DNA of 64,000 nucleotides from Strigops habroptila (taxonomy: Eukaryota; Chordata; Aves; Psittaciformes; Psittacidae). Made by a program: the position numbers and the translations under genes. Shown here piece by piece: positions 173-63,073 of the stretch; within the stretch, counting starts at the first letter, position 1; each line of letters starts with the position of its first letter. Where the stretch lies: the NCBI RefSeq assembly GCF_004027225.2, contig NW_022651087.1, forward strand, positions 1 through 64,000. Reading direction: 5' to 3'. Under the pieces are notes generated by a model that ran no database searches, was not told where the DNA came from, and saw only the letters and a list, made by a program, of their open reading frames with translations.

Positions 173-3100
173 CGGCGCCGCCGTCGCGGAAGCCCGCCAC
201 GTGCAGGCTGTACCCGTCCTCCTCGGCGCTGACGGCGCGCGGGGACAGCGCGAAGGAGCCGTACGTGGCGGCGGCAGAGTTGTTCTCGAAGTCCTCGAGC
301 TCCACCCGCAGCTCGTACGGGGCCTGCAGCGTCAGCAGGTGCAGCGTCTGCAGCCCTGGGGGTTATGGGGCAGCTATGGGGCAGCTATGGGGCACAGCGG
401 GGCGATGGGGTGGGATATGGGCTGGGATATGGGGCACACCCGCAGCTCGTACGGGGCCTGCAGCGTCAGCAGGTGCAGCGTCTGCAGCCCTGGGGGGCAG
501 GATGTGGGGCAGCTATGGGGTGGGATATGGGCTGGGATATGGGGCACACCCGCAGCTCATACGGGGCCTGCAGCGTCAGCAGGTGCAGCGTCTGCAGCCC
601 TGGGGGGTTATGGGGCAGCTATGGGGCAGCTGTGGGGCAGCTATGGGGCACAGCGGGTCTATGGGGTGGGATATGGGCTGGGATATGGGGGTGGGATGCC
701 CCCTGTGGACCACTTATGGATCTCTATGGGTCCCTATGGTCTCTATGGGTCCCTATGGTCTCTATGGGTTCCTATGGATCTCTATGGAGTCTCTATAGTC
801 TCTATAGGTCCCTATGGGTCTCTGTGGGTCCGTATGGGTCTCTAGGAGTTCTTATGGTTTCTATGGGTCTCTACGGGTGTCTATAGGTTTCTATGGGTGT
901 CTATGGGGTCTCTATGGTGTCTATGTGCCTCTGTGGGTCTCTATGTATCTCTATGGGTTTCTATAGGTCTCTATGGATCCCTATGTATGTCTATGGGTCC
1001 CTATAGTCTGTATGGGTCCCTATGATGTTTATGTGTCTATATAGTCTTTTTAGGTCTCTATAGGTGTCTATAGGTCTCTATGGGTGTGTATAGCTGTCTA
1101 TGGGTCCCTGTGGTCTCTATTTGTTCTTATGGTCTCTATGTGTCCCTATGGGTGGCTGTGGGTCTCTATGGGTGGCTGTGGGTGGCTGTGGGTCCCGCTA
1201 TGGGTCCTTATGGGTCGCCGTGGGTCCCACTATGGGTCTCTATGGGTGGCTGTGGGTCCCTATGGGTTGCTGTGGGTCCCGCTATGGGTCCCTATGGGTG
1301 GCTGTGGGTCTCTATGGGTTGCTGTGGGTCCCGCTATGGGTCCCTATGGGTGGCCGTGGGTCTCTATGGGTTGCTGTGGGTCCCGCTATGGGTCCCTATG
1401 GGTGGCCGTGGGTCGCGCGGTGGGTCGCTGCGCTCACCGAGCCAGTACTCGCCGTCGGCCCGGCCGAAGCCGCGCCGGTAGTCGTTCCAGCCGCGGAAGA
1501 AGCTCACGGAGCCGTTGAACCTCTTCTGGAACACCTGCAACGCGGGCACCCATGGGTGCTGGGGGGCCCAGGGGGGGTATGGGGGGTGTGGGTGCTGGGG
1601 GGGCGTGGGGGGGATGGGGCCCAGGGGGGGTATGGGGCCCATGGGTGCTGGGGGGCGTGGGGGGGATGGGGGGCATGGGTGCTGGGGGGGGTCCATGGGT
1701 GCTGTGGGGCACCCATGGGTGCAGTGGGGGGGCACCCATGGGCGCTGGGGGGCAGGTACCGTCCACACGTGGCCCTCGGTGCTCATGTCGCAGTAGACGG
1801 GGACGGGGGCCCCGTCGCGCCCCCCCGGGTAGATGAGGTGGACGCCGTCGCTGCGGGAGCCGCCGGCGTGGACGTCGTGACAGTCGCGGGGGGCCAGCGG
1901 CGGGCAGAAGGGGGGCGCTGCCAGCAGGGACACACCCACGTCGCGATATAGCCGTGTCGCGATATAGCCGTGTCGCAATATACCCATGTCGCAATATACC
2001 CATGTTGCGATATACCCATGTCGCAATACTCCCAGATCCCCGTGTCGCGATATGCCCATGTTGCGATATGCCCATGTCGTGATATACCCATACCACGATA
2101 CTCCCATGTCCAAATATACCCATGTCACGATATACCCAGATGTCCATGTCACGATATACGCATGTCAAGATATAACCGTGTCGTGATATATCGATGTCAC
2201 GATACACCCGTATCACTGTGTTGCAATATACCCATATCTCCATGTCACGATATCCTCATGTCACCATGACCCCATGTCACAATATACCCCTCTCGCTGTG
2301 TTGCGATATACCCGTATCCTCACGTTGCGATACAACCATGTCCCAATATCCCCATATCGCCATGTCCCCGTGTCCCCATGTCGCAATATATGTATGTCAC
2401 GATATCCCCATGTCCCCATATCCCCATGTTCCCATATCGCCATGCCCCTGTGTCCCTATGTCGCAATATCCCCATGTCACGTTATCTCCATGTCGCGATA
2501 CCCCCATGTCGCGATCCCCCCCCCCCCCGTGGCGTTCCCCGGGGCTCACCGTGGGGGTCAATGGGCTGCCCCTGCCCCAGCGCCACCAGTCCCACCAGCA
2601 CGGCCAGACCCAGCGCCTGCGGGGCCAGACGGGGCCATAGGGGGCCAGATGGGGGGTATGGGGGGGTATGGGGCGCTATGGGGCCATGGAGGGAGCATAC
2701 GGGGGGGGAGGGGACACTTGGGGGCTCATATAGGGGCTGTATGGGGGGGGTGAGGAGCCATATGTGGGGCTATGGGGCCATATAGGGGCCATAGAGCAGG
2801 GGAGCTATGGGGCCATATAGAGGGAGTTATGGGGCATGGGGGGGCTATTGGAGCATATAGGAGCTATATGGGGGGGGGAACAGGGGCCATATGTGGGGCT
2901 CAGAGGATGTGGGGGGTTCCGGAGTGGCTCCAAGGCCATATAGGGTCCATATAGGGGCTATGGGGCCATATAGGGGCTACATCGGGGGCTATGGGGCCAT
3001 ATAGGGGCTATATCAGGGGCTATGGGGCCATATAGGGGCTATATCGGGGGCTATGGGGCCGTATAGGGGCTATATCGGGGGCTATGGGGCCATATAGGGG

Positions 3101-3382
3101 CTATATCGGGGGCTATGGGGCCATATAGGGGCTATATCGGGGGCTATGGGGCCATATAGGGGCTATATCGGGGGCTATGGGGCTGAATAGGGCAGGTTAT
3201 GGAGCATGGAGGTATGTGGGGAGGGGCTTGTGGGGCTCTATAGGATCCCTATAGGGGCTGTATAAGGGGGCTGAGGGGTATATGGGGGGGATTAGAGGCT
3301 ATGGGGGGGGGCTGAGGGCCCTATGGGGGGGGTAAGGACCCTATAGGGCCCTATGGGGGGGTGGGGTCCCGGTTACCTCCAT
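173..3382 (-). CDS. MFAP4: MFAP4, microfibril-associated glycoprotein 4 (3' part outside window)
   Basis: Secreted extracellular-matrix protein with a fibrinogen-related domain; the family binds elastin/collagen microfibrils. Five exons were chained by splice sites and phase: 3377-3382 (only Met-Glu, ATG at 3380-3382), 2550-2616, 1760-1917, 1438-1534, 173-355. They give about 170 aa: a hydrophobic signal peptide ([15 protein letters not shown]), a short linker, then the fibrinogen-like domain with [61 protein letters not shown] and [15 protein letters not shown]. These match human MFAP4 as I recall it. The RGD present near the N terminus of human MFAP4 is not seen. The donor at 171-172 leads to exons beyond the left edge. 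The two-residue first exon is inferred from an ATGGAG directly before GTAACC and a matching phase. The adjacent intron holds two extra copies of the last exon's edge. Confidence 0.92.
305..605 (-). repeat. Triplicated MFAP4 exon edge with its splice acceptor
   Basis: A 51-bp piece of the MFAP4 exon (true copy 305-355) recurs at 439-489 and 549-599, each with the acceptor CCCAG and about 50 bases of exon, separated by CTATGGGG-type array DNA. Both extra copies run on the minus strand into GTGTGCC where the true exon continues with GTGGAGC. Confidence 0.9.
606..1437. repeat. Tandem array, MFAP4 intron
   Basis: Short degenerate repeats of TCTATGGGT/CCCTATGG type, changing after about 1140 into units around GGGTGGCTGTGGGTCTCTAT. 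No exon seen. Confidence 0.85.
1535..1759. repeat. G-rich array, MFAP4 intron
   Basis: Repeats of CCCATGGGTGCTGGGGGG type on the plus strand. No coding signal. Confidence 0.8.
1938..2512. repeat. CATGTCGCGATATACC-type minisatellite, MFAP4 intron
   Basis: About thirty degenerate units of roughly 16-20 bp around CCCATGTCGCGATATA. Units contain the palindromes TCGCGA and GATATC-like cores and carry CpG. The composition differs from all other arrays in the window. Confidence 0.88.
2640..3370. repeat. GGGGCCATATAGGGG array, MFAP4 first intron
   Basis: Irregular repeats; 2945-3185 is a regular block of about seven units of roughly 36 bp built from GGCCATATAGGGGCTATATC. Confidence 0.85.
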
Positions 3383-3419
3383 GGCGGCCGGAGCTGCTGT
3401 GGATGGAGCGGGAAGGGGC

Positions 3420-3960
3420 CCCTATAGGGGTGTCGGGAACAATGGGGGCCCCTATAGGGGGAAATAGCCTTAACCCCGCCCCTTTATAGGGGAAGGAGGC
3501 TGAGCCCGGCCTCTCTATAGGGGAAAGAGCCCCCAGATCACGCCCTATAGGGCCCTACACCATTAAACCCGCTACTCTATAGGGGCTACACCCTTAAACC
3601 TGCCCTTCTATAGGGACTCTATGCTTAACCCTGCCTTTCCATAGGGTCTATGGCCTTATTTGTGCCCATCTAGAGGGGCAGTGCCCTTTAGGCTTAGCCC
3701 CGACCGTCTATAGGGTCTGTAGCTTATTTCTCTCCCACCTATAGGGTGTATACCATTAACCCTGGCCCTATATAGGGGAAACGGCCTTGATTTTGGCCCC
3801 TATAGGACCTTTAGCCTTAACCATGCCCATCTATAGGGCCTTTACCCTTAGCCCCGCCCATCTATGGGGTCTATAGCGTTAGCCCCGCCCATCTATAGGG
3901 TCCACACCCTTAGCCCCGCCCCTCTATAGGGCCCTATAGCCCCAGCTCAGCCCCTCAGTC
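3420..3960. repeat. CTATAGGG / CCTTAGCCCCGCCC spacer array
   Basis: Spacer between MFAP4 exon 1 and the SRRM2 promoter, made of degenerate units combining CTATAGGG with CCTTAACCCCGCCC, so it also holds many GC-box-like CCCGCCC words. No open coding signal. Confidence 0.75.
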
Positions 3961-3966
3961 CCCCCT

Positions 3967-4362
3967 CACAAGATGGCGGCCGCGCGCAAGGCACGCCGGG
4001 AAATGTAGTTCCTCGGCGGAGCCTCCCCCATAGAGAGCAATGGGAAGAGCGACTACAAGTCCCGTCGCCCCTCGCGCGCGGGCAGACACCGGCAGAGCCA
4101 CAAGATGGCGGCCGCGCGCGGAGCACCCTGGGAGTTGTAGTCCGCCTGCCCACGGCGCCCTATGGGGAAGACGGGTCCGGAGAACTACACTTCCCGTCGT
4201 GCCTCGCGCGTCGCCCCGGGGTCCGCGCATGCGCATTGGGCGCGGCTGGACCCTCTCGCTGTCGGCCGGAAGAGGAGGCGGCGTCGCGTGGCGTCGCTTC
4301 GCGTTCCGGTTGTTCGGGCCTCGGCGGCCGCGGACAAACCTCGTTGGACCCCATCGGAGCCG
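3967..4362 (+). promoter_or_regulatory. SRRM2 CpG promoter with duplicated ZNF143/YY1 module and 5' UTR exon
   Basis: CpG-rich segment. Four ZNF143/STAF-like sites are readable: minus-strand ACTACATTTCCCGGCGTGC at about 3991-4010, plus-strand ACTACAAGTCCCG at 4052, minus-strand ACTACAACTCCCAGGGTGC at about 4123-4141 and plus-strand ACTACACTTCCCG at 4184. AAGATGGCGG (YY1 type) occurs at 3970 and 4102. Every corresponding site is 132 bp apart, so this is a tandem duplication. An NRF1-type CGCGCATGCGCA lies at 4224-4235 and an inverted CCAAT at 4235-4239. The non-coding first exon probably starts near 4240-4300 and ends at 4362 before GTGAGG; the start site is inferred. Confidence 0.8.
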
Positions 4363-4419
4363 GTGAGGGCGGGGGGGGCGTTCGGTGGCCGTTAATGGCC
4401 GTTAGTGGCCGTTGGAGAC

Positions 4420-6640: not shown

Positions 6641-6727
6641 AGGGCTGGGGGTGCCACGCGGGGGTGCGGGGGGGTGGGGGGTCCCTGACGGCGGCCCCCC
6701 CGCAGGGGCGGTCGCGCGGCGCCCGCC

Positions 6728-18340
<11,613 letters not shown>

Positions 18341-18656: not shown

Positions 18657-19233
18657 TGGCGTCCCGCATGGCCCAGTACGGGATGGGGGCGTCCCAGTAT
18701 AGCATGGGGGGGGGCTCCTCCTCGCAGTACAGCATGGGGGGGGGTGTCCCAGTACAGCATGGGCTCGGCCCAGTATAACGCCACCTTGTCCCAGTACAAC
18801 AGCGCCCAGTACCAGTATGCCATCAGCTCCCAGTACGCGGCTGGGAGCGGAAGCGCCGCGTCCCAGTACGCCCAGTACGCCCAACTGGCTGCTTCCCAGT
18901 ACACCCCCCCCAGCAGCGGTGAGGTGACCCAGTACACAGCCACCACCACCACCGGGGCGGGGGGGGACTCCCAGTACAGCACCAGCGCGGCCCAGTACGC
19001 GGCCAGCGCCGCCCAGTACGTGGCATCGGGGGCGGCTGCGGCGGCGGCGGCAGCGGCCGCGGGGGGGGGGCGGGACGGAGGCCGCCCAGTACGGAACTGG
19101 GAGCCAGTATGGGGCCAGCGGGGGGCAATGGGGGGACGTGGGGCAAGAGGCCGCGTGGGCCACCTCCGGGGCCGTGGCCACTGGGGGGGGCGCGGGGGTC
19201 ACTTGGGGGTCTTGGGTGTCGCCTGCCCCATAG
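18657..19233 (+). CDS. Unassigned SQY/AQY-repeat reading frame
   Basis: I do not recognise this gene. From an ATG in good context (GGCCATGG, 18657) the reading gives MASRMAQYGMGASQYSMGGG, then about fifteen SQY/AQY motifs (SAQYNATLSQYNSAQYQYA, SSQYAAG, AAQYVASG), an alanine run, then TEAAQYGTGSQYGASGGQWG and EEAAWATSG-like sequence to a TAG at 19231-19233. This needs one frame change at the G-run near 18735-18745 and one at 19062-19071. The same motif type continues across both breaks, which suggests homopolymer errors rather than decay. The frame is open upstream to at least 18299. It could be a separate gene driven from the X-box region or a bird-specific C-terminal part of SRRM2. The composition (Q/Y/S/A/G) resembles low-complexity, phase-separating RNA-binding proteins, but no folded domain is visible. 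Confidence 0.5.
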
Positions 19234-29600: not shown

Positions 29601-32600
29601 GGGGGATATGGGGGGTTATAGAGGGGATATGGGGGGTATAGGGGGATATAGGGAGGGTTTGGAGGGGTATAGGGGGCTATGGGGGGGTATAGAGGAATAT
29701 AGAGGAGGTATGGAGGAGTATAGAGGGGATATGGGGGGGTATTGGGGGGGGTTTGGAGGGGTATAGGGTGGTTTTGGGGGGATATAGAGCGCTATGGGGG
29801 GGTATAGGGGTGTATGGGGGGTTATAGAGGGGATATGGGGTGGGTTTGGAGGGATATGGGGGTTATAGGGGGTTATAAGAGGATGTAGGGGGCTTTGGAG
29901 GGGTATAGGGGGCTATGGAGTGGTTTTGGGGGGGATATAGAGCGCTATGGGGGGTATAGGGGGGAATTGGGAGGATATATAGAGAAGTTAGAGGGGGATA
30001 TGGGCGGTGGGTGGGAATGGGGGAGATATAGGGGATATGGGGGGGATATGGATGGGAATTGCGGGGCTATGGGGGTTATAGAGGGGCTATGGGGGTTATA
30101 GAAGGGCTGTGGGGGGTATAGAGGGGCTATGGGGGGCTATGGCGGGTTACAGAGGGGCTATGGGGGGTATGGGGGGGTATGGGGCGCGCCGGGGCGCTGC
30201 AGAGGCGCCCATGGGTGCCCGTGCCCCGCAGGCGAGGCGCTGCTCCGCACCGTGGCCGCCGTGGCCGCGGCTCCCTTCGGCGTCGGGCTCCTCACGCACA
30301 TGCTGCGCTGCGGGAGCGCCCCCACGCGGCTGGCGTGTGCCACTGCGCTGCCGCTGCTCGCCAGGTACCCACAGACACCCATAGACACCCATAGAGCCCC
30401 CACAGAGACCCATAGAGACCCATAGACACCCATAGAGAGCCATAGGCACCCCATAGACACCCCATAGAGCCCCATAGACACCCACTGGCGTGTGCCACTG
30501 CACTGCCGCTGCTCGCCAGGTACCCACAGAGCCCCACAGAGCCCCATAGAGCCCCATAGACACCCCATAGAGACCCATAGAGACCCATAGACATCCACTG
30601 GCATGTGCGACTGCACTGCCGCTGCTCGCCAGGTACCGCGGAGCCCCATAGAGACCCATAGAGCCCCACAGAGCCCCACAGAGACCCATAGAGACCCATA
30701 GAGCCCCCATAGAGACCCACAGAGGCCCCATAGAGACCCATAGAGACCCATAGACACCCCATAGAGCCCCATAGGCATCTATAGATACCCCATAGACACC
30801 TATAGATACCCCATAGAGCCCCATGGATACCTGTAAATACCCGTTGACACCTATTGGTACCCCATAGGCACCCCATAGATCCCATAGACACCCATTGACA
30901 CCCTATAGATCCCCATAGACACTCAATGATACCCCATAGACACCCAATGATACCCCATTGATACCCCATAGATCCCCATAGCCCCCCATAAACACCACCC
31001 CACTCCCCGCAGACCCCCCTAAACCCCATAGACACCCCATAGACACCCCATAGCTGCCACAGACCCCCCCTAGACCCCCCCCAGACCCCCATCGCCACCC
31101 CCTATAACCCCCCCCAGACCCCCCCCATTGCCCTCCCCACCTGCCCCCCTCCCCCCTTCCCCCTTAGCATGACGTTGGCATGACGCTGGCGTGTGCTTGG
31201 CGTGTCCAGGCCCTCGTCGCCGGCGCACGAGCTGCTGTGGGGCGGGGGGGCCGTGGCGCTGCTGCTCTCGGCCGTGGCCCAGGGCCCCGCGTCCCCCTTC
31301 GAGCCCCCCCCGGCCTTCCTGCTCTACGCCGCCGACGCCATCGCCCTGCTGCGCGCACACGCCAAGGACACGTCTGCGCACGCCAAGGACACGTCTGCGC
31401 ACGCCGAGGACACGTCTGCGCACGCCAAGGACATGCCTGGACACGCGGAGGACACGCCAAGGCGGGTGCTGGCCGCGGCAGCGCAGCCGGAGGATGCTCT
31501 GGAGGTTGAGGTAGGGGCTGGTGTGGGGCGCGTGCCCCATAGATACCCCATGGGCACAGCATTGAGCTCCATAGGTGCCCCATAGATGGCATGGAGCCCC
31601 CATAGATGCCCCATAGATCCTCATAGATACCCCATAGATGGCATAGACCCCCCATAGATGCCCCATAGACCCCCATAGACCCACATAGATACCCCATAGA
31701 TGCCCCATAGACACCAATAGACTCCCCATAGAGCCCCAAAGATACCCTATTGACCCCCATAGACACCCCATAGATCCCCATAGATGCCCCATAGATCCTC
31801 ATAGATACCCCATAGATGGCATAGACCCCCCATAGATGCCCCATAGACCCCCATAGACCCACATAGATACCCCATAGATGCCCCATAGACACCAATAGAC
31901 TCCCCATAGAGCCCCAAAGATACCCCATTGACCCCCATAGACACCCCATAGATCCCCATGGACACCATAGACACCCCATGGACACCCATAGACACCCCAT
32001 AGATCCATATAGACACCAATAGACACCCCATAGAGTGCCCCGTAGGCACCCATATACCCACGTAGACACCCCATAGACGCCCCATAGATGCCCATAGGCT
32101 CCCCATAGACACCTGAAGACACCCCATAGAGCCATGTAGACTCCCCATAGACACCCCAGGGACCCCCATAGACACCCCATAGATGGCCATAGACCCCCAT
32201 AGACACCCCATAGACCCCCCTGGATGGTCTCCAACCCCCCGCCTGCTCCCCCATAGGTGCCCAATGGGGCCGGCGAGGAGCTGTGGGGCCCGGCGGAGCC
32301 AGAGGCCGCCCCCCAAGCGGACGTCCTGGCCCAGCTGCCCCCATTGCTGTCCCCTCTGCCCCACGGCGCCCCCCCGGCCTCCTCCCCTCCCTGTGGGGGC
32401 ACGGGGGGCTCCAGCCCGTGGCCAAGCTCTTCTGACCCACGTCCAGCCTCTCCCAACCCACCTCCAGCCTCTTCCACCCCAGTCCCAAGCTCCAAACCCT
32501 CTCCCAACCCATCTCCCACCCCATTCCTGAGCTCCAACCCACCTCCAGCCTCTTCCAACCCATATCCAATGTCCTCCAACCCACCTCCAACAGGTTCCAA

Positions 32601-33993
32601 CCCATCTCCAACCCCTTCCAACCCATATCCAATGTCCTCCAACCCATCTCCAACCTGTTCCAACCCATCTCCCACCCCATTCCTAAGCTCCAACCCATCT
32701 CCAACCTTCTCTAACCCATCTCCAACAGGTTCCAACCCATCTCCAACCCCTTCCAACCCATGTCCAATGTCCTCCAACCCATCTCCAACCTCTCCCAACC
32801 CATCTCCAACCTGTTCTAATCCATATCCAATGTCCTCCAACCCACCTCCAACAGGTTCCAACCCACCTCCAGCCTCTCCCAACCCATCTCCAACCTGTTC
32901 TAACCCATATCCAGTGTCTTCCAACCCATCTCCAGCCCCTTCCAACCCATGCGTGGTGACTTCCAACCCATTTCCAGCCTCTCCCAATCCATCTCCAACC
33001 TTCTCGAACCCATGTCCCACCCTATTCCTGAGCTCCAAGCCACCTCCAACCTCTCCCAACCCACCGCCAACCTTCTCCACCCCATCTCCAACCTGTTCTA
33101 ACCCATATCCAGTGTCCTCCAAGCCACCTCCAGCCTCTCCCACCCCATGTCTGATGTCCCCCAACCCATCTCCAACCTGTTCTAACCCATCTCCAGCCTC
33201 TCCCACCCCATGTCTGATGTCCCCCAACCCATCTCCAACCTGTTCTAACCCATCTCCAGCCTCTCCCACCCCATCTCCGCCAGGTTCCACCCCATCTCCG
33301 ACCTTCTCCCCCCCCGCTCCAGCCCCCCCCGCCCCCTGCCCTTACTCCCAAGCCCCCCACGACCTCCTCCTGCTGCCGGGCGGCCTCCCCCCCGCCATCC
33401 CGGCGTGGCGCTCGGCGCTGGCCGCCTCCTCCCCGGTGCTGCGGGCGATGCTGCTGGGTCCCTTCCTGGAGGCCCGGCAGCGGGAGGTCTCCTTGGCCGG
33501 CGCCCCCCGCCTGCCGCTGCTGCTGCTGCTGCACTTCCTGCACGGCTGCCGCCGCTGCCCGCTGCTGGCAGCGCCGGTGCCGCCCGCTGCCGCCGGCGCC
33601 GCCGCCGCGCTGGCGCGCCGCTTCCTGCTGCCGCAGCGCGGCCTGTTCGAGCGCACGGTGGCGGCGGCGGCGCGGGGGGCGCCGGCCGCGCTGTGGGCCG
33701 CGGCGGAGCGCTGGGGCTCGGCCCCGCTGGCGCTGCGGGCCTGCGCGCTGCTGCTGCGGGGGCCGCCGCGGCGCGTGGCGCGGCGCCTGGCTGCCGTGCG
33801 CCGCTGCGCCCGCTGCCCCCGGCGCCTGGCCGCCGCGCTCATGGGCGCCATAAGGGGCGCGGGGGAGGGGGACATGGGGGGCTGGGGGGACGGGGACCCC
33901 CTGCTCATGGAGCCCGCGGCGGGGTGGGGGGCTGAGCTGGAGGGGGAGGGGGGGGGGCTATGGGGAGAGCCGGGACCCCCAGGAGGACCCTGA
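23667..33993 (+). CDS. ARMC5: ARMC5, armadillo repeat-containing protein 5
   Basis: ARM-repeat plus BTB protein. The human protein is a cullin-3 substrate adaptor acting on RNA polymerase II subunit RPB1 and a tumour suppressor of the adrenal cortex. Exons 23667-23943, 25867-25974, 26680-27535, 28588-29051, 30232-30364, 31210-31510, 32257-33993 chain in phase to 1,291 aa (human about 935). Recognisable: LELALSVLANLCTESGCRRQ, ARALANLALEPDGARDVLEA, GAIGNACAQATLRPALG, REAVNRLRIRSAGGLELLLR, ARFTFLAEPSRALV, LLRSWLVLGVAP, FGVGLLTHMLRCGS, then the BTB-like HDLLLLPGG / RAMLLGPFLEARQ / LLHFLHGCRRC near aa 1078-1245. The extra length is a Glu run (about aa 372-387), an AHAKDTS repeat (exon 6) and about 300 aa of NPSP repeats between ARM and BTB. 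The stop at 33991-33993 follows a G-run. A second open frame continues beyond it. Confidence 0.95.
23944..25590. repeat. GGGGGAAATGGGGCTAAATAGAAG array, ARMC5 intron 1
   Basis: About 1.6 kb of purine-rich degenerate units; the plus strand is almost entirely G and A with T in ATGGGG and TAAATAG. Confidence 0.9.
25590..25860. repeat. CCCCCATTGATGCCCCCATTG array, ARMC5 intron 1 end
   Basis: Abrupt switch from purine-rich to pyrimidine-rich units CATTGCCCCCCATTGATGCC, ending at the exon 2 acceptor. Confidence 0.85.
25975..26679. repeat. G-rich then CCTATAGCACCCCTAAGTGT arrays, ARMC5 intron 2
   Basis: 25985-26310 is made of GGGGGGCTATGGGGTGCCTG units; 26320-26620 of CCCTAAGTGTCCCTATAGCG units of about 20 bp. 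Confidence 0.88.
27536..28587. repeat. TTTAGATGGTTCTTGATGG array, ARMC5 intron 3
   Basis: Higher-order units of about 125 bp (for example CCTTCAGCCCCTTTAGATGC, TTCCTGATGGTTCCTGATGG), repeated at least four times from 27820 to 28440. T-rich compared with the other arrays. Confidence 0.88.
29052..30210. repeat. GGGGGGATATGGGGGGTTATAG array, ARMC5 intron 4
   Basis: About 1.1 kb of G-rich units of 15-30 bp, such as GGGGATATGGGGGGTTATAG and GGGGGGTTTGGGGGGATAT. Confidence 0.9.
30330..30640 (+). repeat. Triplicated ARMC5 exon 5 end with its splice donor
   Basis: The last 35 bases of exon 5 and the donor (CTCGCCAG before GTAC) occur at the true site (GT at 30365) and again with GT at 30520 and 30633, embedded in CCCATAGAGACC array DNA. 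The copies differ at a few bases (TGCGCTG to TGCACTG). Confidence 0.92.
30641..31190. repeat. CCCATAGAGACCCATAGAC array, ARMC5 intron 5
   Basis: Short repeats of ACCCATAGA and CCCCATAGA type; the last 130 bases before the acceptor are C-rich. Confidence 0.88.
31511..32256. repeat. CCCCATAGATGCC array with a 178-bp duplication, ARMC5 intron 6
   Basis: 31604-31781 and 31782-31959 are near-identical copies 178 bp apart, within shorter CCCCATAGA units. Confidence 0.88.
32430..33330 (+). repeat. Coding minisatellite in ARMC5 exon 7 (NPSP repeats)
   Basis: In-frame units coding PNPSPTCSNPSPASPTP, SNPYPMSSNPPPTGSNP and similar, based on TCCAACCCATCTCCAACC. The frame stays open into the BTB-like region, so the repeat is translated if exon 7 is used. 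Confidence 0.88.
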
Positions 33994-35026
33994 GGGCTTG
34001 GGAGAGGAGTTGGGGGTCGCGTGTAAGGACCTTGGGGAGCTCCGGGACCCCCATGAGGACCTCAGTGAGCCCCATATGGATCTCAATGACCCCCATATGG
34101 ACCTCAATGACCCCCATATGGACCTCGAAGATCTCCATGAGGACTTCAATGACCCCCTTGAGGACTTCAATGACCCCTATATGGACCTCAATGACCCCCA
34201 TGAGCACCTCAAAGATCTCCATGGGGACCTCAATGACCCCCATATGGACCTCAAGGATCTCCATGAGGACCTCAATGACCCCCGTATGGACCTCAAAGAT
34301 CTCCATAAGGACGTCAAGGACCCCCATGAGCACCTCAGTGACCCCCATATGGACCTCGAAGATCTCCATAAGGACCTCAATGACCCCCATATGGACCTCA
34401 AAGATCTCCATAGAGACCTAAGGAACCCCCATAAGGACCTCAAGGACCCCCATAGGGACCTAAGGGACATGGAAGATGACTTCGGAGACCCCTATAAGGA
34501 CCTCAAGGATCCCCATATGCATCTCAAGCACCTCCATAAGGACCTTAGGAACCCCCATAAGGACCTCAAGGCCCCCCCTAGGGACCTAAGGGACATGGAA
34601 GATGACTTTGGAGACCCCCATATGGCCCTCAAAGACCTCCATAGGGACCTGAGGAACCCCCATATGGGCCTCGAGGACCCCCATGGAGACCTAAGGGACA
34701 TGGAAGATGACCTTGGAGACCCCCGTGAGGCCCTCAAGCGCATGGAAGATGACTTGGGGGTCACGTCTAAGGACCTTGGAGAGCTCCAGGACCCCCATGA
34801 GGACCTCAAGGACCCCCATAGGGACCTAAGGGACATGGAAGATGACTTGGGGGTCCCTTATGGAGACATCGAGGCCCATGGGGACCCCCAGGAGGACCTG
34901 AGGACCATGGCCCGTGACGTGGGGGTCTCCTGTGGGCCCCCCCAAGGAGCCTTCCCCTCCGAGGACCCCTCCATGGAGCTTGGGGAGCCCATAGGGGAAG
35001 CCATGGACACGAAGGGACCCCTCTGA
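33944..35026 (+). CDS. Possible ARMC5 C-terminal extension: acidic DPHMDL repeats
   Basis: Just after the G-run at 33948-33958, the +1 frame reads YGESRDPQEDPEGLGEELG and continues for about 350 codons of NDPHMDLKDLHEDL / RDMEDDFGDPHKDL repeats, ending in a non-repeat tail (SMELGEPIGEAMDTKGPL) at a stop 35024-35026. The ARMC5 frame itself stops at 33993. One base more or fewer in the G-run would join the two. The repeat period is a multiple of three, so openness alone is weak evidence; the non-repeat tail staying open argues a little more. The alternative is 3' UTR, since the poly(A) signal is at 35492. Confidence 0.4.
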   Translation, partial: GRGGGYGESRDPQEDPEGLGEELGVACKDLGELRDPHEDLSEPHMDLNDPHMDLNDPHMDLEDLHEDFNDPLEDFNDPYMDLNDPHEHLKDLHGDLNDPHMDLKDLHEDLNDPRMDLKDLHKDVKDPHEHLSDPHMDLEDLHKDLNDPHMDLKDLHRDLRNPHKDLKDPHRDLRDMEDDFGDPYKDLKDPHMHLKHLHKDLRNPHKDLKAPPRDLRDMEDDFGDPHMALKDLHRDLRNPHMGLEDPHGDLRDMEDDLGDPREALKRMEDDLGVTSKDLGELQDPHEDLKDPHRDLRDMEDDLGVPYGDIEAHGDPQEDLRTMARDVGVSCGPPQGAFPSEDPSMELGEPIGEAMDTKGPL

Positions 35027-45959: not shown

Positions 45960-46136
45960 GGGGGTTTTATTGCCCCCCTTGGGGGGGGGGCGGGGGGGTT
46001 GGGCCCCGCCCCCTTCCTCGCCCCTCCCCCCGCCTTGAGGCGCCTCGTGCCCTTTCTCGGGAATAACCGGGAATAGAAACGGGAAGGGGGGGGGGGGGGG
46101 GACCCGCACCTGCTGCCCCTCCCCCCACGGCAGCTG
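45960..46136 (-). promoter_or_regulatory. MYLPF promoter: TATA-like word and paired E-boxes
   Basis: On the minus strand an ATAAAA word (about 45966-45973) lies 55-60 bp before the ATG. E-boxes CACCTG/CAGGTG (46107-46112) and CAGCTG (46131-46136) lie about 200-225 bp upstream and suit MyoD-family control. Inference from motifs only. Confidence 0.45.
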
Positions 46137-46184
46137 CGGGGAGGGGGAGGGGAGCAGGGGGGAAGGGGACATCCCGGGGATCCC

Positions 46185-46640: not shown

Positions 46641-46675
46641 CTTGGGGCCAGTCCCAGCCCCTCCCACTCCCCCCT

Positions 46676-48235: not shown

Positions 48236-48259
48236 TTGTGTCCCCCCCAGGGCTGCCCC

Positions 48260-49701
48260 ATGGCGTCGGGGCCGGAGCTGCTTCGCGCCGATGACACCAG
48301 CGATGGGGGGGCCCCGTCCTGCCCCACCGCACCCCACAGCGACGGCTCCTGCCCCACAGCGCCCCATAGCGATGGCTCCTGCCCCACAGCGCCCCATAGC
48401 GATGGCTCCTGCCCCATAGCGCCCCCCGGTGCCCGCCTGAGCATCGCCATCCTCTGTTACATCAACCTCCTCAACTACATGGATCGCTTCACTGTGGCTG
48501 GTACTTGGGGGGCGCTATGGGGCGGGATGCGGGGTGGCGGTGGGGCGCTATGGGGTGCCCTGTGGGTCCCTCTGGGGTGCCATAGCATGGCTATGGGTCC
48601 CTACAGGGTGCCCTAGCGTGGCTATGGGTGCCCTATGGGTCACTATGGGGTGCACAGGGTGGCTATGGGTCCCTGTGGGTGCTATGGGGCAGCCCCACAT
48701 CCCGCCCCCCCACCAGGCGTCCTCCCCGACGTTGAGGATTTCTTCAGCATCAGCGACAGCAGCTCCGGGCTCCTGCAGACAGGTGGGACCCCCCTGCCCC
48801 ACACGTGTGGGGCTGACCCACAGCTATGGGGCTGAGCCACATCTATGGGGCTGAGCCACACTTATGGGTCTGACCCATACTTATGGGTTTGACTCACACT
48901 TATGGGGCAGACGCACAGCTATGGGGCCACCCCATGCTTATAGGGCTGCCCCACAGCTCTGGGGCTGCCCCACACATAGGGGTCTGACCCACAGCTGTGG
49001 GGCCACCCCATGCTTATGGCCCTGCCCCACACTTACAGCTCTGCTCCACACTTATGGGGCCTCCCCACACTTATGGGGCTGCCCCACAGCTCTGGTGCTG
49101 CCCCACACATAGGGGTCTGACCCACAGCTATGGGGCCACCCCATACTTATGGCCCTGCCCTACACTTATGGCTCTGCTCCACACTTATGGGGCTGCCCCA
49201 CAGCTCTGGGGCTGCCCCACATATAGGGGTCTGACCCACAGCTATGGGGCCGCCCCACACTTATGGCTCTGCTCCACACTTATGGGGCCACCCCACACTT
49301 ATGGGGCTGCCCCACACATAGGGGTCTGACCCACAGCTATGGGGCCGCCCCATACTTACGGCCCTGCCCCACACTTACGGCTCAGCTCCACATTTATGGG
49401 GCTGCCCCACAGCTCTGCGGCTGCCCCACACATAGGGGTCTGACCCACAGCTATGAGGCCACCCCATACCTATGGCCCTGCCCCACACTTACGGCTCCGC
49501 TCCGCGCTTATGGGGCCGCCCCACACTTATGGGGCCGCCCCACACTTATGGGGCTGCCCCACAGTGTTCATCGGCAGTTACATGGTGCTGGCGCCCCTCT
49601 GTGGCTATTGGGGGGATCGCAGGAGCCGGAAGCGGCTCCTCAGCCTCGGCCTCGCCCTATGGGCGGCTGCGACCATGGCCGGGAGCTTCGTCCCCCCCCA
49701 G
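48260..49701 (+). CDS. SPNS1: SPNS1, spinster homolog 1 (first three coding exons)
   Basis: Lysosomal major-facilitator transporter that exports lysophospholipids. Coding exons 48260-48500, 48717-48782, 49565-49701 chain in phase to 148 aa. A variable N-terminal tail contains a 10-residue repeat (SDGSCPTAPH, about four copies), followed by TM1 with IAILCYINLLNYMDRFTVAG, the motif VLPDVEDFFSISDSSSGLLQ, then VFIGSYMVLAPLCGYWGDRR and SRKRLLSLGLALW, as in human SPNS1. The donor after VPPQ at 49701 is followed by array DNA and a 500-N gap. None of the remaining two-thirds of the protein is found to the right, so those exons lie in the gap or are missing from the assembly. Confidence 0.92.
48783..49560. 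repeat. Higher-order array with inverted GGGGC/GCCCC pairs, SPNS1 intron
   Basis: Unit of about 110-125 bp (CACACTTATGGGGCTGCCCC, ACATAGGGGTCTGACCCACA, CTTATGGCCCTGCCCCACAC), four to five copies. Many short inverted repeats such as TGGGGCTGCCCCA. Confidence 0.9.
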
Positions 49702-49833
49702 GTGAGGCGCTGTGGGGCGCTGTGGGGCGCTATGGGGCGGCTATGGGTGGCTATGGGTGGCTATGGGGTGTCTATGGGGCGCTATGGGGTGTCTATGGGG
49801 GTCTGTTGGGGTGGCTATGGGTGGCTATGGGGT

Positions 49834-50333
49834 NNNNNNNNNNNNNNNNNNNNNNNNNNNNNNNNNNNNNNNNNNNNNNNNNNNNNNNNNNNNNNNNNNN
49901 NNNNNNNNNNNNNNNNNNNNNNNNNNNNNNNNNNNNNNNNNNNNNNNNNNNNNNNNNNNNNNNNNNNNNNNNNNNNNNNNNNNNNNNNNNNNNNNNNNNN
50001 NNNNNNNNNNNNNNNNNNNNNNNNNNNNNNNNNNNNNNNNNNNNNNNNNNNNNNNNNNNNNNNNNNNNNNNNNNNNNNNNNNNNNNNNNNNNNNNNNNNN
50101 NNNNNNNNNNNNNNNNNNNNNNNNNNNNNNNNNNNNNNNNNNNNNNNNNNNNNNNNNNNNNNNNNNNNNNNNNNNNNNNNNNNNNNNNNNNNNNNNNNNN
50201 NNNNNNNNNNNNNNNNNNNNNNNNNNNNNNNNNNNNNNNNNNNNNNNNNNNNNNNNNNNNNNNNNNNNNNNNNNNNNNNNNNNNNNNNNNNNNNNNNNNN
50301 NNNNNNNNNNNNNNNNNNNNNNNNNNNNNNNNN
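49834..50333. other. Assembly gap, exactly 500 N
   Basis: A run of 500 N inside SPNS1, flanked by CTATGGGG array on the left and GGTCATTG array on the right. The round length suggests a placeholder, not a measured size. Confidence 0.99.
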
Positions 50334-51095: not shown

Positions 51096-51373
51096 ACCCC
51101 CCATTGACCCCTCTGCCCCCACCTTGAGGCCACCTCCTGCCCCCCAAGTGTGTCCCCCCCCCCCACCAAGCGCATGGATGGAGGCTCATGGCAAGGGGGT
51201 GGAGCCAAGGAGCGAAGGGGAGGAGCCAAACAGCCAATGGACGCCATGATTGGATGGGCGGAGGCCGAGGAACCGCTGCGATTGGTCGGCTCCGTGAACC
51301 ATTGTCTCTTCATTGAGTCTCATGAATGGAGAAGGACATGGAGGAGATGATGGGGGGGGTCAACTGGGGGGCC

Positions 51374-56749
<5,376 letters not shown>

Positions 56750-56974
56750 GGCGTGGGGGGGGTTTGGGGGGGGGGGTGGGGGGGGGAGGGGGGAGGGGCC
56801 GGACGCGGCGCGTGCTGCTGGGGGGGGGGGGGGGGAGGTGGGGGGAGGGGTTGCGGCTGCGGCTGAGGCTGGAGGGGGGGGAGGGGGGCTGCGGAGAAGG
56901 GGGCGGGGCCTCGGGGGAGGGGGCGGGGCTTGTGGGGGGATGCACCAATGGAGGGGGGAAGGGCTCGTATTGGG

Positions 56975-57515
56975 GTCCCCAGGTCCTGTATCGTGATCCC
57001 AGACCCCATGTCGTGATCCCACATCCCAGTTTTGGGGTCCCACGTCCCATATTATGATCCCAGATCCCATTTTGGGGGTCCCAGACCCCATTTTGGGGGT
57101 CCCGCTTCTCATATTATGATCCCAGATCCCATTGTGGGGGTCCCAGACCCCATTTTTGGGTCCCACATCCCATATTATGATCTCACGTCCCATTTTCGGG
57201 GTCCCACATCCCATTTTTGGGGTCCCACGTCCCATATTATGATCCCAGATCCCATTTTTGGGTCCCAGACCCCATTTTTGGGGTCCCACATCCCATATTA
57301 TGATCCCAGATCCCATTTTTGGGGTCCCACATCCCATTTTCGGGGTCCCACGTCCCATCTTGTGATCTCAGATCCCATTTTTGGGGTCCCACATCCCATT
57401 TTTGGGATCCCAGATCCCATTTTGGGCGTCCTAGACCCCATTTTTGGGTCTCAAATCCCATTTTGGGGGTCCCACATCCCATATCGTGATCCCACATCCC
57501 ATATCGTGATCCCTA
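56975..57515. repeat. GATCCCAGATCCCATTTTTGGGG array between STX1B and STX4
   Basis: About 22-bp units (CCCACATCCCATTTTTGGGG, CCCACGTCCCATATTATGAT). It fills the space between the two divergent syntaxin promoters. Confidence 0.92.
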
Positions 57516-57689
57516 TTGCTCATGGGTCCGCCCCCCCCCCTTGGAGGACCTTCCCCCGCGCTCCTCTCTATGGTTCGGCGGACTCCATGGCCAGAGCGTC
57601 CACCTCTCCCTCCGCCTCCACTGTGCCGGCGCAGGCGCAGAGCGGCCGCCGGCACTTCCGCATCCGGCCGGCGGGAGAAGGGCGCCACC

Positions 57690-60600
57690 ATGCGGGACAG
57701 GACGCGGGAGCTCCGCCAGGTGGGGTTGGGGGGGGACACACACCCCAAAAAGGACCTAAATGGGCCCAAAATGGGCCCAAAATGGGGCTCAGGGACCCCT
57801 ATATGGCCCCATGGACCCCTCTATGGACCCACTGACCCCTACATGGACCCCAATATGAACTCATTGACCCCTATACGGCCCCATTCACCCCAATATGGCC
57901 CCACGGACCCCAATATGGACCCATGGACCCCTATATGGACCCCAATATGGCCCCATGGACCCCAATATGGCCCCATTCACCCCAATATGGCCCCATGGAC
58001 CCCTACATGGACCCCTTGACCTCTATATGGACCCCAATATGGCTCCATGGACCCCTACATGGACCCCAGTATGGCCCCATTGACCCCCATAGGACCCCAT
58101 GGACCCCTATATGGGCCCCAGTATGGCCCCATTGACCCCAATATGGCCCCATGGACCCCTCTATGGACCCCAATATGGCCCCATTGACCCCCATATGGCC
58201 CCATGGACCCCTCTATGGACCCCAATATGGCCCCATGGACCCCTATATGGCCCCATTGACCCCTCTATGGCCCTATAGACCCCTATGTGGCCCCATTGAC
58301 CCCTATGTAGCCCCATGTCCCCCCAGGCCTATGGCAGCAGCTCGGAGGAGGAAGAGGAGGACGAAGACGGGGCCAAAGTGGCTCTAATGGGGCTGAACCC
58401 CCTCCTGCAGGTGAGTGTGTGTGTCCCCCCCTTTTACACGCTACTCACACGCCCTTAGCGTGTCCTTAGCGTGTGCTTGGCGTGTTCCGGCAGGCGGGGG
58501 GGGTGCGGGCGGCGCTGCGGGCACTGGAGCTGAAGCTGGAGGCGCTGGAGCTGCTGCAGGAGACGGTGCTGGGCAGCCCCCTGCCCCAGGAGGGTGCGTA
58601 GGGGCCTATAGGGGCCTATAGGGGGCTATAGGGGGGCCTAGAGGGGCGGTATGGGGAGGGTATAGGGGTTTGTGGGAGGCTATGGCGTGTTATGAGCAGC
58701 TATAAGGGGGTTATAGGGGTCCATATGGGGCTCTGGGGGGCTATAAGGGGGTTATAGAGGGGCTATAGGGGGTTATAGGGGGCTATAGGGGGTTAAAGGG
58801 GGGTTTTGGGGGCTATAGGGGGGCTATAGGTAGGTTTGGGGGGGCTATAGGGGGCTGTAGGGGGCTATAGGGAGTCTATGGGGCTATGGGAAGGTTATGA
58901 GGGTCTGTAGGGGGCTATGGGGGGGCTATAGGGAAGCTATATGGGGGTTATGGGGGGCTTATGGGGGCCTATAGGAGTCTATAGGGGGGCTATAAGGGGC
59001 TATAAGGGGATTATGGGGGCCTATAGGGGGGCTATAAGGGGCTATAAGGGGGTTATGGGGGCCTATAGGGGTCTATAGGGGAGCTGTAAGGGGCTATAAG
59101 GGGGTTATGGGGGCCTATAGGGGTCTATAGGGGAGCTGTAAGGGGCTATAAGGGGGTTATGGGGGCCTATAGGGGTCTATGGGGGGCTGTAAGGGGCTAT
59201 AAGAGGGTTATAGGGGCCTATAGGGGGGCTATAAGGGGCTATAAGGGGCTATAAGGGGATTATGGGGGCCTATAGGGGTCTATAGGGGTCTCTAGGGATC
59301 TCTTCTGGTCTCCCCCGTGCCCCCCCAGGGCAGAAGCGGGATCTGCAGCTCCACCGGGATGAGATCCAGGAGCTCACCCAGGAGATCCGCTCCCGGCTGC
59401 AAGGTGGGACCCACAGCGCCCCATAGCGCCCCATAGCGCCCCATAGCACCCCATAGACACCCCACAGCACCCCATAGACACCCATAGACACCCCATAGTG
59501 CCCCATAGCACCCCATAGCGCCCCATAGCACCCCATAGTGCCCCATAGACACCCATAGACACCCCATAGTGCCCCATCGACACCCCATAGACACCCCATA
59601 GCGCCCCATAGCTCCCCATAGACACCCCATAGACATCCATAGAAACCCATAGACACCCCACAGCGCCCCATGGGCACCCCATAGCATCCCATAGCATCCC
59701 ACAGCGCCCCATAGCGCCCCATGGACACCCCATAGCACCCCCCAGACACCCCATCGACACCCCATAGCACCCTGGCGCTATGGGATCTGTGGGGCCGCCC
59801 CATAGCGCTGGAGCCAGCGAAGGAGGAAGAGGAGGATGAGAACAGGAACAGCATCAGGGCGCGGGTGAAGCGCACCCAGGTAAGGGGGGCTTGGGGGCCC
59901 ACAGGCGTTTTTGGGGTCCCCCGGCTGGTTTGGGGGTCCCCGGATGCGTTTTTGGGGTCCGTGAGTGTGGTTTTGGGCTCTCAAAGGTGTTTTCGGGGGC
60001 CCTGAGTGCATCTTTGGGCTCCCCACATGCATTTTTGGGGTCACAGATGGGTTTTTGGGGTCCCTGAACACGTTTCTGGGCCCCCAGATGTGGTTTTGGG
60101 GTCCCCGGGGGGGGGGGTTTTGGGCTCCCAGAGGTGTTTTGGGGCTCCCCGAGGCATAATTGGTGTCTCTTGGGGGGTTTTTGAGGTCCCCGGGGGGGTT
60201 TTTGGGGTCTCTTGGAGGGTGTTTGGTGTCTCTTTGGGGGGTTTTGGGTGTCTCTTGGGGGGTTTTTGGGGTCTCTTGGGGGTTTTTGGTGTCTCTTGGG
60301 GCATTTTTGGTGTCTCTTGGGGGGTTTTTGGTGTCTCTTGGGGGGTTTTGGGGTCCTCGGGGGGGTTTTTGTTGTCTCTTGGGGGGTTTTGGGGTCTCTT
60401 GGGGGGTTTTTGGGATCCCCGGGGGGGTTTTTGGGGTCTCTTGGGGGGTTTTGGTGTCTCTTGGGGGCTTTTGGTGTCTCTTAGGGGACTTTTGGTGTCT
60501 CTTGGGGGTTTTTGGGGTCCCTGGGGGGGGTTTTGGTGTTTCTTGGGGGTGTTTGGTGTCTCTTGGGGGCTTTTGGTGTCTCTTGGGGGTTTTTGGGATC

Positions 60601-63073
60601 CCCGGGGGGGTTTTTGGGGTCTCTTGGGGGGTTTTGGTGTCTCTTGGGGGCTTTTGGTGTCTCTTAGGGGACTTTTGGTGTCTCTTGGGGGTTTTTGGGG
60701 TCCCTGGGGGGGGTTTTGGTGTTTCTTGGGGGTGTTTGGTGTCTCTTGGGGGGGTTTTGGTGTCTCTTTGGGGGTTTTCGGGGTCCCCGGAGCTGGTTCG
60801 GGGTCCGTGGGTGCGCCTGGGGGTGCCGGTGAGGTCTGGCCCCGCAGCACGCGGCGCTGACGCAGCAGTTCCTGGCGCTGACGGGCCGGTGCCACGCGGC
60901 CCAGGCCCGCTTCCGGCAGCGCAGCCTCGAGCGCCTGCGGCGCCAGCTCCACGTCGGTGAGATGGGAGGGGGGGGCTGGGGTTGGGATGGGATTGGGATG
61001 GGATTGGGATGGAATGGGATGGGATGGGATGGGATTGGATTGGGATTGAAATGGGATTGGGATGGACTGGGATGGGATTGGGATGGGATGGGATTGGGAT
61101 GGGGTGGGATGGGATGGGATGGGATGGGATTGGGATGGGATGGGATGGGATGGGATTGGGATGGGATTGGGATGGACTGGGATGCAGTGGGATGCATTGG
61201 GATGGACTGGGAGTGCTGGGATGAACTGGGAGCGCTGGGATGAACTGGGATGAACTGGGATGAACTGGGAGCACTGGGATGAACTGGGATGAACTGGGAG
61301 CACTGGGATGCAGCTGGCAGCGCCCCGGTCACGGAGGAGGAACTGGAGCAGATCCTGGAGTCGGGGCAGAGCGAGATCTTCATCAGCAACGTGAGGCAGC
61401 ACCCATGGGTGCTGGGGGGGCACCCCTGGGCTCTGGGGGGTTAATGGGTGTCAATGGGTGCCAATGGGTATCAATGGCAGTCAGTGGGTGCCAATGGGGT
61501 CAATGGGTGTCACCGGTGATCAATGGGTGTCAATGGGTGTCAGTAGTGATCAGTGGGTGCCAGTGGGTGTCACTGGTGATCAATGGGTGTCACTGGTGAT
61601 CAATGGGTGCCAATGGGGATCAGCGGCAGTCAGTGGGTGCCAATGGGGATCAATGGCAGTCAGTGGGTGCCAATGGGTGTCACTGGGCACCCATGGGTGC
61701 AGATGCCGGGCGCGTCGCGGGCGCTGGAGGAGGTGGGGCTGCGGCACCGGGAGCTGCAGCGCCTGGAGCGGGGCCTCCGGGACCTGGGCGAGCTCTTCAC
61801 CCTGCTGGGGACCAGCGTGGAGCAGCAGGTGGGTGCCGGTGGGTGTCAATGGGTGCCGGTGGGTGCCAATGGGTGCCAATGGGTGTCAATGGGTGCCAAT
61901 GGGTGCCAATGGGAGGCACTGGGATGCACTGGGGGGTGGTTACAGCACAGCTCTATCAGGGCATACTGCTTTATATTGGGTTATACTGGTTCTTATTGGT
62001 CTGTACTGGTTTGTTACTGGTCCATATTGGCCCATATTGGTTTATTACTGGATTATACTGGGCCATGTTGGACCATAGTGGCTTATTACTGGTCCATATT
62101 GGCCCATATTGGTTTATTACTGGATTATACTGGGCCATGTTGGATCATAGTGGCTTATTACTGGGCTGTATATGGTCCGTACTGGCTTATGACTGCTTTA
62201 AATAGGTCTGTTTGGGTGCATACTGGTTTATACTGGATTAGACTGGCCCATAGAGGTCCATACTGGTTTATTACTGGTTTATTACTGGTTTATACATGTT
62301 TCTTTTGGTCCATACTGGCTTATTACTGGTTTATACTGGTCCATACTGGCTTATGATGGGTCTGGATTGGCCCATAGTGGTTTATTACTGGTTTGTACTG
62401 GCCCATACTGGCTTATTAGTGCATTACACTGCTCTATATTGATCCATACTGGCTTATTACTGGTCCAGATTGGCCCATACTGGTGTGTTACTGGTTTACA
62501 CTGGCCATATTGGCCCATGTTGGTTTATTACTGCATTATACTGGACCATATTGGTCCATACTGGTTTATTACTGGTGTGTATTGGTCCATAATGGCTTAT
62601 TATTGGTTTATATTGGTCCATAATGGTTAAATACTGCATTATACTGGTTTATTACTGCCGGCCCATACTGGTCCGTATGCTGCAGGGGAGCTGCTGGACC
62701 GCATCGAGCACCATGTGCAGGGCTGGCCTGTACCGGTCCATACTGCTCCATACTGCTCCATACCAGTCCATACTGCTCCATAGTGGTCTATACTGGTCCA
62801 TATGCTGCAGGGGGAGCTGCTGGACCGCATCGAGCACCATATACAGGACTCGGGCTCCCGCCTGGACAAGGGGACCCGGCACTTGGGGGCAGCAGCCCGG
62901 AGCCAGCAGGGGGCGCGAAAGGTCAGGCCCCGCCCCCTTCCCCCCTTCCCCCCCCTTGACCCACGTGACCCCCCCCTCCCATCCAATAGAAGAAGCTGCT
63001 GCTGGCCGGGTGTGTCGTCATCACCGTCGTCATCATCGCCGTCATCATTGCCGTCACCATGGCAACCGGCTAG
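57690..63073 (+). CDS. STX4: STX4, syntaxin-4
   Basis: Plasma-membrane Qa-SNARE for exocytosis outside neurons, for example GLUT4 vesicle fusion with SNAP23 and VAMP2 in mammals. Exons 57690-57719, 58327-58410, 58494-58593, 59329-59403, 59806-59879, 60848-60956, 61314-61390, 61703-61828, 62811-62921, 62990-63073 chain to 870 nt, 289 aa (human 297). MRDRTRELRQ N-peptide, acidic [12 protein letters not shown], Habc helices (LRALELKLEALELLQETVLG to RRQLHV), EELEQILESGQSEIFISN, SNARE motif (LRHRELQRLERGLRDLGELF, EQQGELLDRIEHHIQDSGSR), then the tail anchor KKLLLAGCVVITVVIIAVII. The acceptor at 61313 was chosen over 61320 because only it keeps frame (HVAGSAPVTEEE). A decoy copy of the exon 9 start lies 125 bp upstream of the true one. 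Confidence 0.96.
57780..58315. repeat. CCCCAATATGGCCCCATGGACC array, STX4 intron 1
   Basis: Units of about 18-36 bp around ATGGACCCCTATATGGACCC. Confidence 0.92.
58594..59310. repeat. GGGGGCTATAGGGG arrays, STX4 intron
   Basis: Short GGGGGCTATAGG units, then from about 58950 a higher-order unit of about 60 bp (AAGGGGCTATAAGGGGGTTA, TGGGGGCCTATAGGGGTCTA), five copies. Confidence 0.92.
59404..59780. repeat. CCCCATAGCGCCCCATAGAC array, STX4 intron
   Basis: Short CCCCATAGCGCCCCATAG units up to the acceptor at 59805. Confidence 0.92.
59880..60835. repeat. GGGGTCTCTTGGGGGGTTTT array, STX4 intron
   Basis: Units of about 22 bp, with a larger duplication of about 183 bp (for example CTTTTGGTGTCTCTTAGGGG at 60470 and again near 60650). 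Confidence 0.92.
60957..61310. repeat. GGGATGGGATTGGGATGGGA array, STX4 intron
   Basis: GGGATGGGATT 5-16-bp units, then AACTGGGAGCACTGGGATG units up to the acceptor. Confidence 0.92.
61391..61695. repeat. CAATGGGTGTCACTGGTGAT array, STX4 intron
   Basis: Units of about 17-24 bp around GATCAATGGGTGTCACTGGT. Confidence 0.9.
61829..62800. repeat. ACTGGTTTATTACTGGTCCATA array, STX4 intron 8
   Basis: About 0.7 kb of AT-richer units (TGGTTTATTACTGG, TGGTCCATACTGG, TTGGCCCATATTGG), unlike the GC-rich rest of the window. Confidence 0.9.
62677..62721 (+). repeat. Decoy copy of the STX4 exon 9 start
   Basis: TATGCTGCAGGGGAGCTGCT and the next 25 bases repeat the true acceptor and exon start (62801-62845), 125 bp upstream, with one G fewer after the acceptor and a diverging end (CCATGTGCAGG against CCATATACAGG). 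Confidence 0.92.

Follow-up and report, generated by a model that had tools for sequence, protein, structure and literature searches.

Avian dot chromosomes are small, GC-rich, gene-dense and repeat-rich (Huang et al., 2023, PMC9974502), and their kind of GC-rich gene has been overlooked by assemblies (Hron et al., 2015, PMC4539667). A recent study in chicken (Hron et al., 2026, PMC12954441) described a process of 'sequence stuttering', called 'exon stuttering' where the donor or acceptor had been copied along with the end of its exon. As given in the main text of that study, exon stuttering was found in 190 of 5,572 dot-chromosome introns (3.4%), and 36 macrochromosomal introns were also counted. 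More than 90% of the chicken copies lay within one base of the exon border, their exon part was 20–187 bp long (median 36), and their number ranged from 1 to 44 (median 4), with the proviso that a single copy may have arisen in another way. The structure at PHF8 was verified in raw nanopore reads, coding regions were called intact, no repeat block was reported to extend into an exon, and other birds were mentioned, with their loci not named. Exon stuttering is further characterized by heavy tandem-repeat coverage of the introns, by a marked preference for dot chromosomes, by its absence from paralogues located on other chromosomes and by differences in length among individuals. A second system to which such copies can be compared is intron gain by tandem genomic duplication (Gao and Lynch, 2009; Hellsten et al., 2011; both as summarized in a review, PMC3443670).

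Here we analyze three genes of a parrot, Strigops habroptila, in which exon ends have been captured by tandem arrays. The first-pass annotation of this DNA had presented such capture as lacking a general description for bird microchromosomes, which was wrong in view of the published account of exon stuttering in chicken (Hron et al., 2026), whose screen comes near to the one that the annotation had proposed.

Gene models

The window, by which we mean the whole stretch of DNA analyzed, comprised the first 64,000 bases of the 67,833-bp contig C59, in a genome of 1.149 Gb represented by 89 contigs. We built models by hand for eight genes, which together contained 61 exons, 55 introns and 113 internal splice edges: MFAP4 (reverse strand), SRRM2, ARMC5 and TGFB1I1 (all forward), a MYLPF-like light chain (reverse), SPNS1 (forward), STX1B (reverse) and STX4 (forward); VKORC1 seems to start near the window end. 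The hand-built models had AG at 57 of 57 internal acceptors and GT at 55 of 56 donors, the sole non-GT donor being the end of the large SRRM2 exon, where the model boundary is one base short. The frame was open over the full length of the TGFB1I1, light-chain, STX1B and STX4 models, and across the portion present of MFAP4 and SPNS1, the latter of which is interrupted by a 500-N assembly gap at 49834–50333. Pfam searches, run on six models (MFAP4, STX4, residues 1–662 of ARMC5, TGFB1I1, the light chain and SPNS1), agreed with the gene types and assigned Fibrinogen_C to MFAP4, ARM_ARMC5 to ARMC5, and Syntaxin and SNARE to STX4; a PDB search with the STX4 model returned syntaxin-1A as its top matches. 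Beyond this agreement in type, the names MFAP4, SRRM2, TGFB1I1, MYLPF-like, SPNS1, STX1B, STX4 and VKORC1 are those that we take the genes to bear.

The frame broke in two models. The joined SRRM2 model contains stops in exon 11, where an alternative frame is open throughout 11703–16430, and this break possibly reflects the placement of the junction between exons 10 and 11, or an indel there, within 11510–12040. The ARMC5 model reaches a stop at 33991.

Copies of exon ends and splice sites in adjacent introns

We compared the terminal 30 bases of each exon with 500 bp of adjacent intron, a test applicable to 112 of the 113 edges. Near-identical extra copies (29–30 of 30 bases) were present at three of the 112: the MFAP4 acceptor, the ARMC5 donor and the STX4 acceptor, which scored 30, 29 and 30 of 30, respectively. 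The next-best edge scored 19/30, and the maximum among 1,310 mismatched pairs of probe and intron was 21/30. A second probe, which joined 15 exon bases to 10 intron bases, had a null maximum of 18/25 among 896 pairs, and together the two nulls ruled out chance likeness of GC-rich sequence. Thus, the array copies with exon end and splice site that the first-pass annotation had reported in these three genes lie where it had placed them, with scores of 29–30 against a null maximum of 21.

In MFAP4, the exon concerned encodes part of the fibrinogen-like domain (173–355, reverse strand; frame-checked model with Pfam support), and bases 303–355 were captured with the acceptor. The captured block spans 60 bp (303–362), comprising 53 exon bases and the acceptor, and recurs on the same strand at 437–496 (60/60 identical, 134 bp away) and at 547–606 (59/60 identical, 244 bp away). 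In ARMC5, the captured piece is the last 35 bases of exon 5 (30232–30364, forward strand; open-frame model with Pfam support) together with the donor. One forward-strand copy lies 155 bp downstream at 30485–30519 (34/35), followed by the donor GTACCC, and another lies 268 bp downstream at 30598–30632 (32/35), followed by the donor GTACCG. In STX4, the first ~41 bases of exon 9, which encodes the SNARE motif (62811–62921, forward strand; gene model with Pfam support), were captured with the acceptor. The single extra copy (62670–62730, forward strand) has its exon start at 62686, 125 bp upstream of the authentic one, carries ~15 bp of the upstream intron, and differs from the authentic ~41 bases by one missing G and three A-to-G changes. 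Identity was 91–100% for the MFAP4 and ARMC5 copies. The authentic exons were in frame in the part of MFAP4 that is present, in exons 1–6 of ARMC5 and in STX4.

Every repeat unit of the three captures combines exon end, splice site and array-type intron sequence; in all three, the copy extends up to the exon border and takes the splice site with it. That the captures are independent, as had been proposed, held up: local tandem units took in an exon end and its splice site three times, at unrelated loci. At the three exon-intron junctions of the copied pieces, inspected by eye, the shared bases numbered a few at most. As a first step, slippage or template switching would fit these junctions better than exchange between long repeats, although three junctions are weak evidence.

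The probe of 15 exon and 10 intron bases added one edge, the donor of the large SRRM2 exon (21/25), as a weak, putative fourth case on the forward strand at 16414–16740, with degenerate donor-like copies in the next intron. These units may be an old exon-edge copy, and the case, which is diverged, may instead reflect a chance GC-rich motif. The intron 3′ of this exon (16429–16740) carries the degenerate donor-like units as GGGTAAGCC. The two probes differed in what they could detect: the longer was blind to short captures, and the shorter, owing to the indel in the G run, did not rank STX4 exon 9 among its 15 best edges. Machine-predicted exons yielded candidates that we rejected. An edge of a predicted MFAP4 exon at 1412–1543 scored 26/30, and was intronic, the hand-built exon ending at 1534; four machine matches in the window of at least 20/25, in addition to those at MFAP4 and ARMC5 (1412–1543, 10072–10143, 16142–16411 and 18744–19061) were taken as mispredicted, wrong-strand or coding-like repeats.

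Distribution of tandem copies around exon borders

Arrays occupied 42 of the 55 introns, with a median array coverage of 0.72 across all 55, and 39% of the window's 30-mers had a tandem copy nearby. We profiled, by position around all edges, the 30-mers that had a copy of at least 26/30 within 500 bp. Such 30-mers were found at 0 of 68 positions 60 bases inside the exon, at 0 of 100 positions 30 bases inside and at 3 of 112 exon ends. On the intron side they rose from 7 of 113 for bases 0–30 to 35 of 113 for bases 30–60, 39 of 101 for bases 60–90 and 39 of 87 further in; ~150 bp into the intron the count was 41 of 79. The difference between the terminal exon bases (3/112) and intron bases 30–60 (35/113) was highly significant (Fisher's exact test, p = 5e-9). 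Exon ends had no significant excess over exon interiors at this threshold (3/112 versus 0/68 and 0/100), and at a laxer threshold of 24/30 the interiors had 2 of 68 and 2 of 100 versus 3 of 112 at exon ends.

A crude placement model pointed the same way. When 69 array segments were placed at random in the 55 introns, each lying at least half inside its intron, 25 edges were predicted to be entered by at least 20 bp; the clear cases observed numbered three. Tandem copies become more frequent farther from the splice site, and arrays therefore mostly avoid exon borders and do not start there. The idea that array growth often begins at exon borders, which the first-pass annotation had drawn from the same captures, thus had the direction reversed, the arrays being rarest in and beside exons. 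By this density profile, exon ends are protected, not favored.

Strength and predicted consequences of the copied splice sites

We scored splice sites with a matrix derived from the window's own sites. In MFAP4, the copied acceptors at 437–496 and 547–606 scored 13.5 and 8.6, compared with 6.3 for the authentic acceptor; in ARMC5, the copied donors scored 4.3 and 4.6, compared with 4.3; and in STX4, the copied acceptor scored 3.2, compared with 2.1. Chance sites in these introns were equally strong, with examples scoring 9.4 at 512 in MFAP4 and 5.7 at 30604 in ARMC5. The earlier wording 'cryptic splice sites' is therefore a fair one for what the matrix predicts, since the copies score at least as high as the authentic sites, although chance sites score similarly. 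For each of the four copies in MFAP4 and ARMC5, splicing at the copy is predicted to run into a stop codon. Use of the STX4 copy would add 125 bases, shift the frame and lose the normal C terminus; no stop occurred in this frameshifted extension through exon 10 and 67 bases further.

Arrays inside coding exons

Arrays also occur inside six coding exons: exon 11 of SRRM2; exons 3, 6 and 7 (to 33900) of ARMC5; exon 1 of SPNS1; and exon 10 of STX4. They span 11731–16428 in SRRM2, 31351–31446 and 32429–33900 in ARMC5, and 48317–48429 in SPNS1. In these exons the best lag was divisible by three for all 2,739 of 2,739 array words, which overlap and are not independent, whereas outside exons this was so for 33.9% of 21,666 array words. 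Lags that are all in frame reflect selection on the reading frame, and they hint that exons, like introns, undergo active duplication. Behind the stop of the ARMC5 model, at 34001–35026, all 649 of 649 array words likewise had lags divisible by three, and this stretch is probably coding, with a frame break upstream of it, either an assembly error or real, that perhaps lies in a G run.

Proteins of the SRRM2 type contain coding repeats in many animals, and the duller reading of the in-frame arrays is that they are ordinary coding repeats of this sort. We also entertain, with somewhat less than even confidence, a form of coding stuttering, in which local duplication would act within coding exons too, filtered only by frame, and would lengthen proteins by three-base steps. 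The in-frame exon arrays offer a simple way to test whether the stuttering process reshapes proteins.

Exon-end copies elsewhere in the genome

Tandem copies were plentiful in other small contigs, with a mean tandem 30-mer fraction of 0.31 over 22 loci (131 kb, with some overlap, L035 overlapping L052 and L017 lying inside L048), compared with 0.39 in the window and with a mean of 0.017 and a median of 0 over 43 large-contig loci (125 kb). Arrays were nearly absent (fraction of at most 0.03) from 4 of 12 sampled small-contig stretches. The 30-base test found no copy at any of 149 machine-predicted edges in 20 loci of the other small contigs, a count free of overlaps, and the 3 of 112 of the window was nominally higher (p = 0.08). 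With the probe of 15 exon and 10 intron bases, 2 of these 149 edges scored at least 20/25, of which one holds up. It belongs to a PLD-like exon on the reverse strand of C80 (locus L048, C80:110001–120000, positions 900–2350 of the locus), the likely donor of which falls within a 23-bp repeat: GTGGGTATC occurs 29 times across ~1.4 kb, including the exon's own occurrence, in a unit that holds only about a dozen exon bases and with an exon end that is approximate. Several other candidates were not counted. The match at L049 (2679–2930) was to a CCCCATAG-type repeat; and the predicted exons with some internal similarity in L039, L042, L044, L046 (twice), L050, L053 and L055 were short-period repeats, low-complexity sequence or, at L046 1818–1952, an array of 50 bp mistaken for an exon by the exon finder.

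The codon model had been trained on GC-rich exons and found few exons in AT-rich loci; large contigs were scored from protein-match coordinates. Among kinase matches on large contigs, 0 of 29 had a copy, in a sample made up of the best 30 of 141 matches, 29 of which lay on large contigs; some of these may be intronless, and their ends do not always coincide with exon ends. As a separate observation, kinase matches that share the profile range 43–160 lie on several small contigs (C62, C67 and C69), near the start of C13 and on C19, and have the appearance of a kinase gene that multiplied recently.

For syntaxin paralogues, we analyzed 13 of the 16 matches outside the window, leaving out three long single-frame ones. 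Neither exon copies nor arrays were found at the six matches on C14 or the four on C11. On C4, arrays were present at three of three matches and a capture at one of them (locus L065, C4:2077440–2078762, positions 150–630 of the locus, reverse strand). The captured unit, an acceptor with 16 exon bases, recurs in the preceding intron once exactly and five times at 18–20/23. At 24/30 in the 30-base test, it was recognized by reading the sequence. The comparison of microchromosomes with macrochromosomes that the first-pass annotation had proposed pointed both ways in this small sample: small contigs were tandem-rich on average and large ones mostly were not, yet this capture sits at 2.08 Mb of C4, a contig of 86 Mb. 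Capture thus also occurs outside the window and on a large contig, and does not require a dot chromosome.

Discussion

We consider it very probable that the extra copies arose by exon stuttering, here taken as tandem duplication across a splice junction within a hypermutable, GC-rich, minisatellite-like intron. This explanation builds on what was directly observed, namely the copies, their units and identity, the open authentic frames and the repeat gradient away from exons. A stretch of tens of bases to ~150 bp that straddled a splice junction would have been duplicated in tandem, through slippage or a template switch as the DNA was replicated or repaired, with unequal exchange or conversion following within the array, and the intron would thereby have gained extra copies of the exon end and splice site. 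The gene would survive because the copy joined to the exon body stays intact. If spliced, the extra copies would be expected to spoil the protein, by premature stops in MFAP4 and ARMC5 and by the 125-base frameshift in STX4, and purifying selection would keep arrays out of exons. Captured pieces are exon ends, not middles, because a contiguous duplication of part of an exon that spares the gene must cross a splice junction. With this, the published border statistic is recast as a matter of geometry and selection.

An account in which exon borders are preferred start points of array growth, for instance if a splice junction stalls replication, would explain why three independent captures occur within 64 kb and why the exon end itself is the basis of each captured unit, and it could draw on the more than 90% of copies that lie at the border in the main text of the chicken study (Hron et al., 2026). 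We nonetheless hold it to be quite improbable: uniform placement already predicts 25 entered edges where three are clear, arrays are scarcest in and near exons and increase with distance, and the border position follows from the geometry just described without any preference.

It is very unlikely that the copies are artefacts that noisy long reads left in the assembly of a repeat-rich contig. The contig is only 67.8 kb long and includes the 500-N gap at 49834–50333, and the frame is likely broken in ARMC5 and possibly in SRRM2, all of which would suit an artefact, but the copies differ by substitutions, are unequally spaced and occur at three unrelated loci, and a similar structure was confirmed by raw nanopore reads at chicken PHF8 in the published account (Hron et al., 2026). 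Retention of the copies for a function, as alternative or decoy splice sites in regulated or poison splicing, strikes us as scarcely credible; the scores of the copies, which equal or exceed the authentic ones in MFAP4, ARMC5 and STX4, are what it would call for, yet those introns also contain chance sites with comparable scores, all four MFAP4 and ARMC5 extensions run into a stop, and the STX4 extension shifts the frame.

Comparison with known systems

The tandem-repeat-rich surroundings of the window resemble avian dot chromosomes, and the setting described by Huang et al. (2023) and Hron et al. (2015) is shared with the window; exon-end capture is not described in the available parts of those two papers. 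Intron gain by tandem genomic duplication is alike in that exon sequence and splice signals lie within the duplication, as outlined in the review (PMC3443670). In that system, however, duplication of an AGGT segment within an exon gives rise to a new intron, whereas here the unit spans an existing junction, and none of our hand-built gene models requires a new intron.

The likeness to chicken exon stuttering, as set out in the main text of Hron et al. (2026), is much closer. The subject here differs in being a parrot, in coming from a contig without chromosome assignment and in having one further case on a large contig, and MFAP4, ARMC5 and STX4 are absent from the main text of that study, the gene list in its Figure S5 lying outside this comparison. 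The number of extra copies (two, two and one) is at the low end of the chicken range of 1–44 with its median of 4. In both birds, partial copies of exon ends with their splice site stand in tandem in an adjacent, repeat-filled intron, and the coding sequence is intact. The exon parts of 53, 35 and ~41 bp fall inside the chicken range of 20–187 bp, with its median of 36, and the copies sit at the border in three of three cases here and within one base of it in more than 90% in chicken. The rate of 3 in 55 introns is consistent with the chicken rate of 3.4%, which predicts 1.9 (binomial p = 0.29), in a comparison of differing criteria, namely a BLASTn score over the whole adjacent intron in chicken and 30 bases over 500 bp here. 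The three cases in the window are therefore exon stuttering as already described in chicken, not a new phenomenon, and they would extend it beyond chicken, to a parrot, in three genes.
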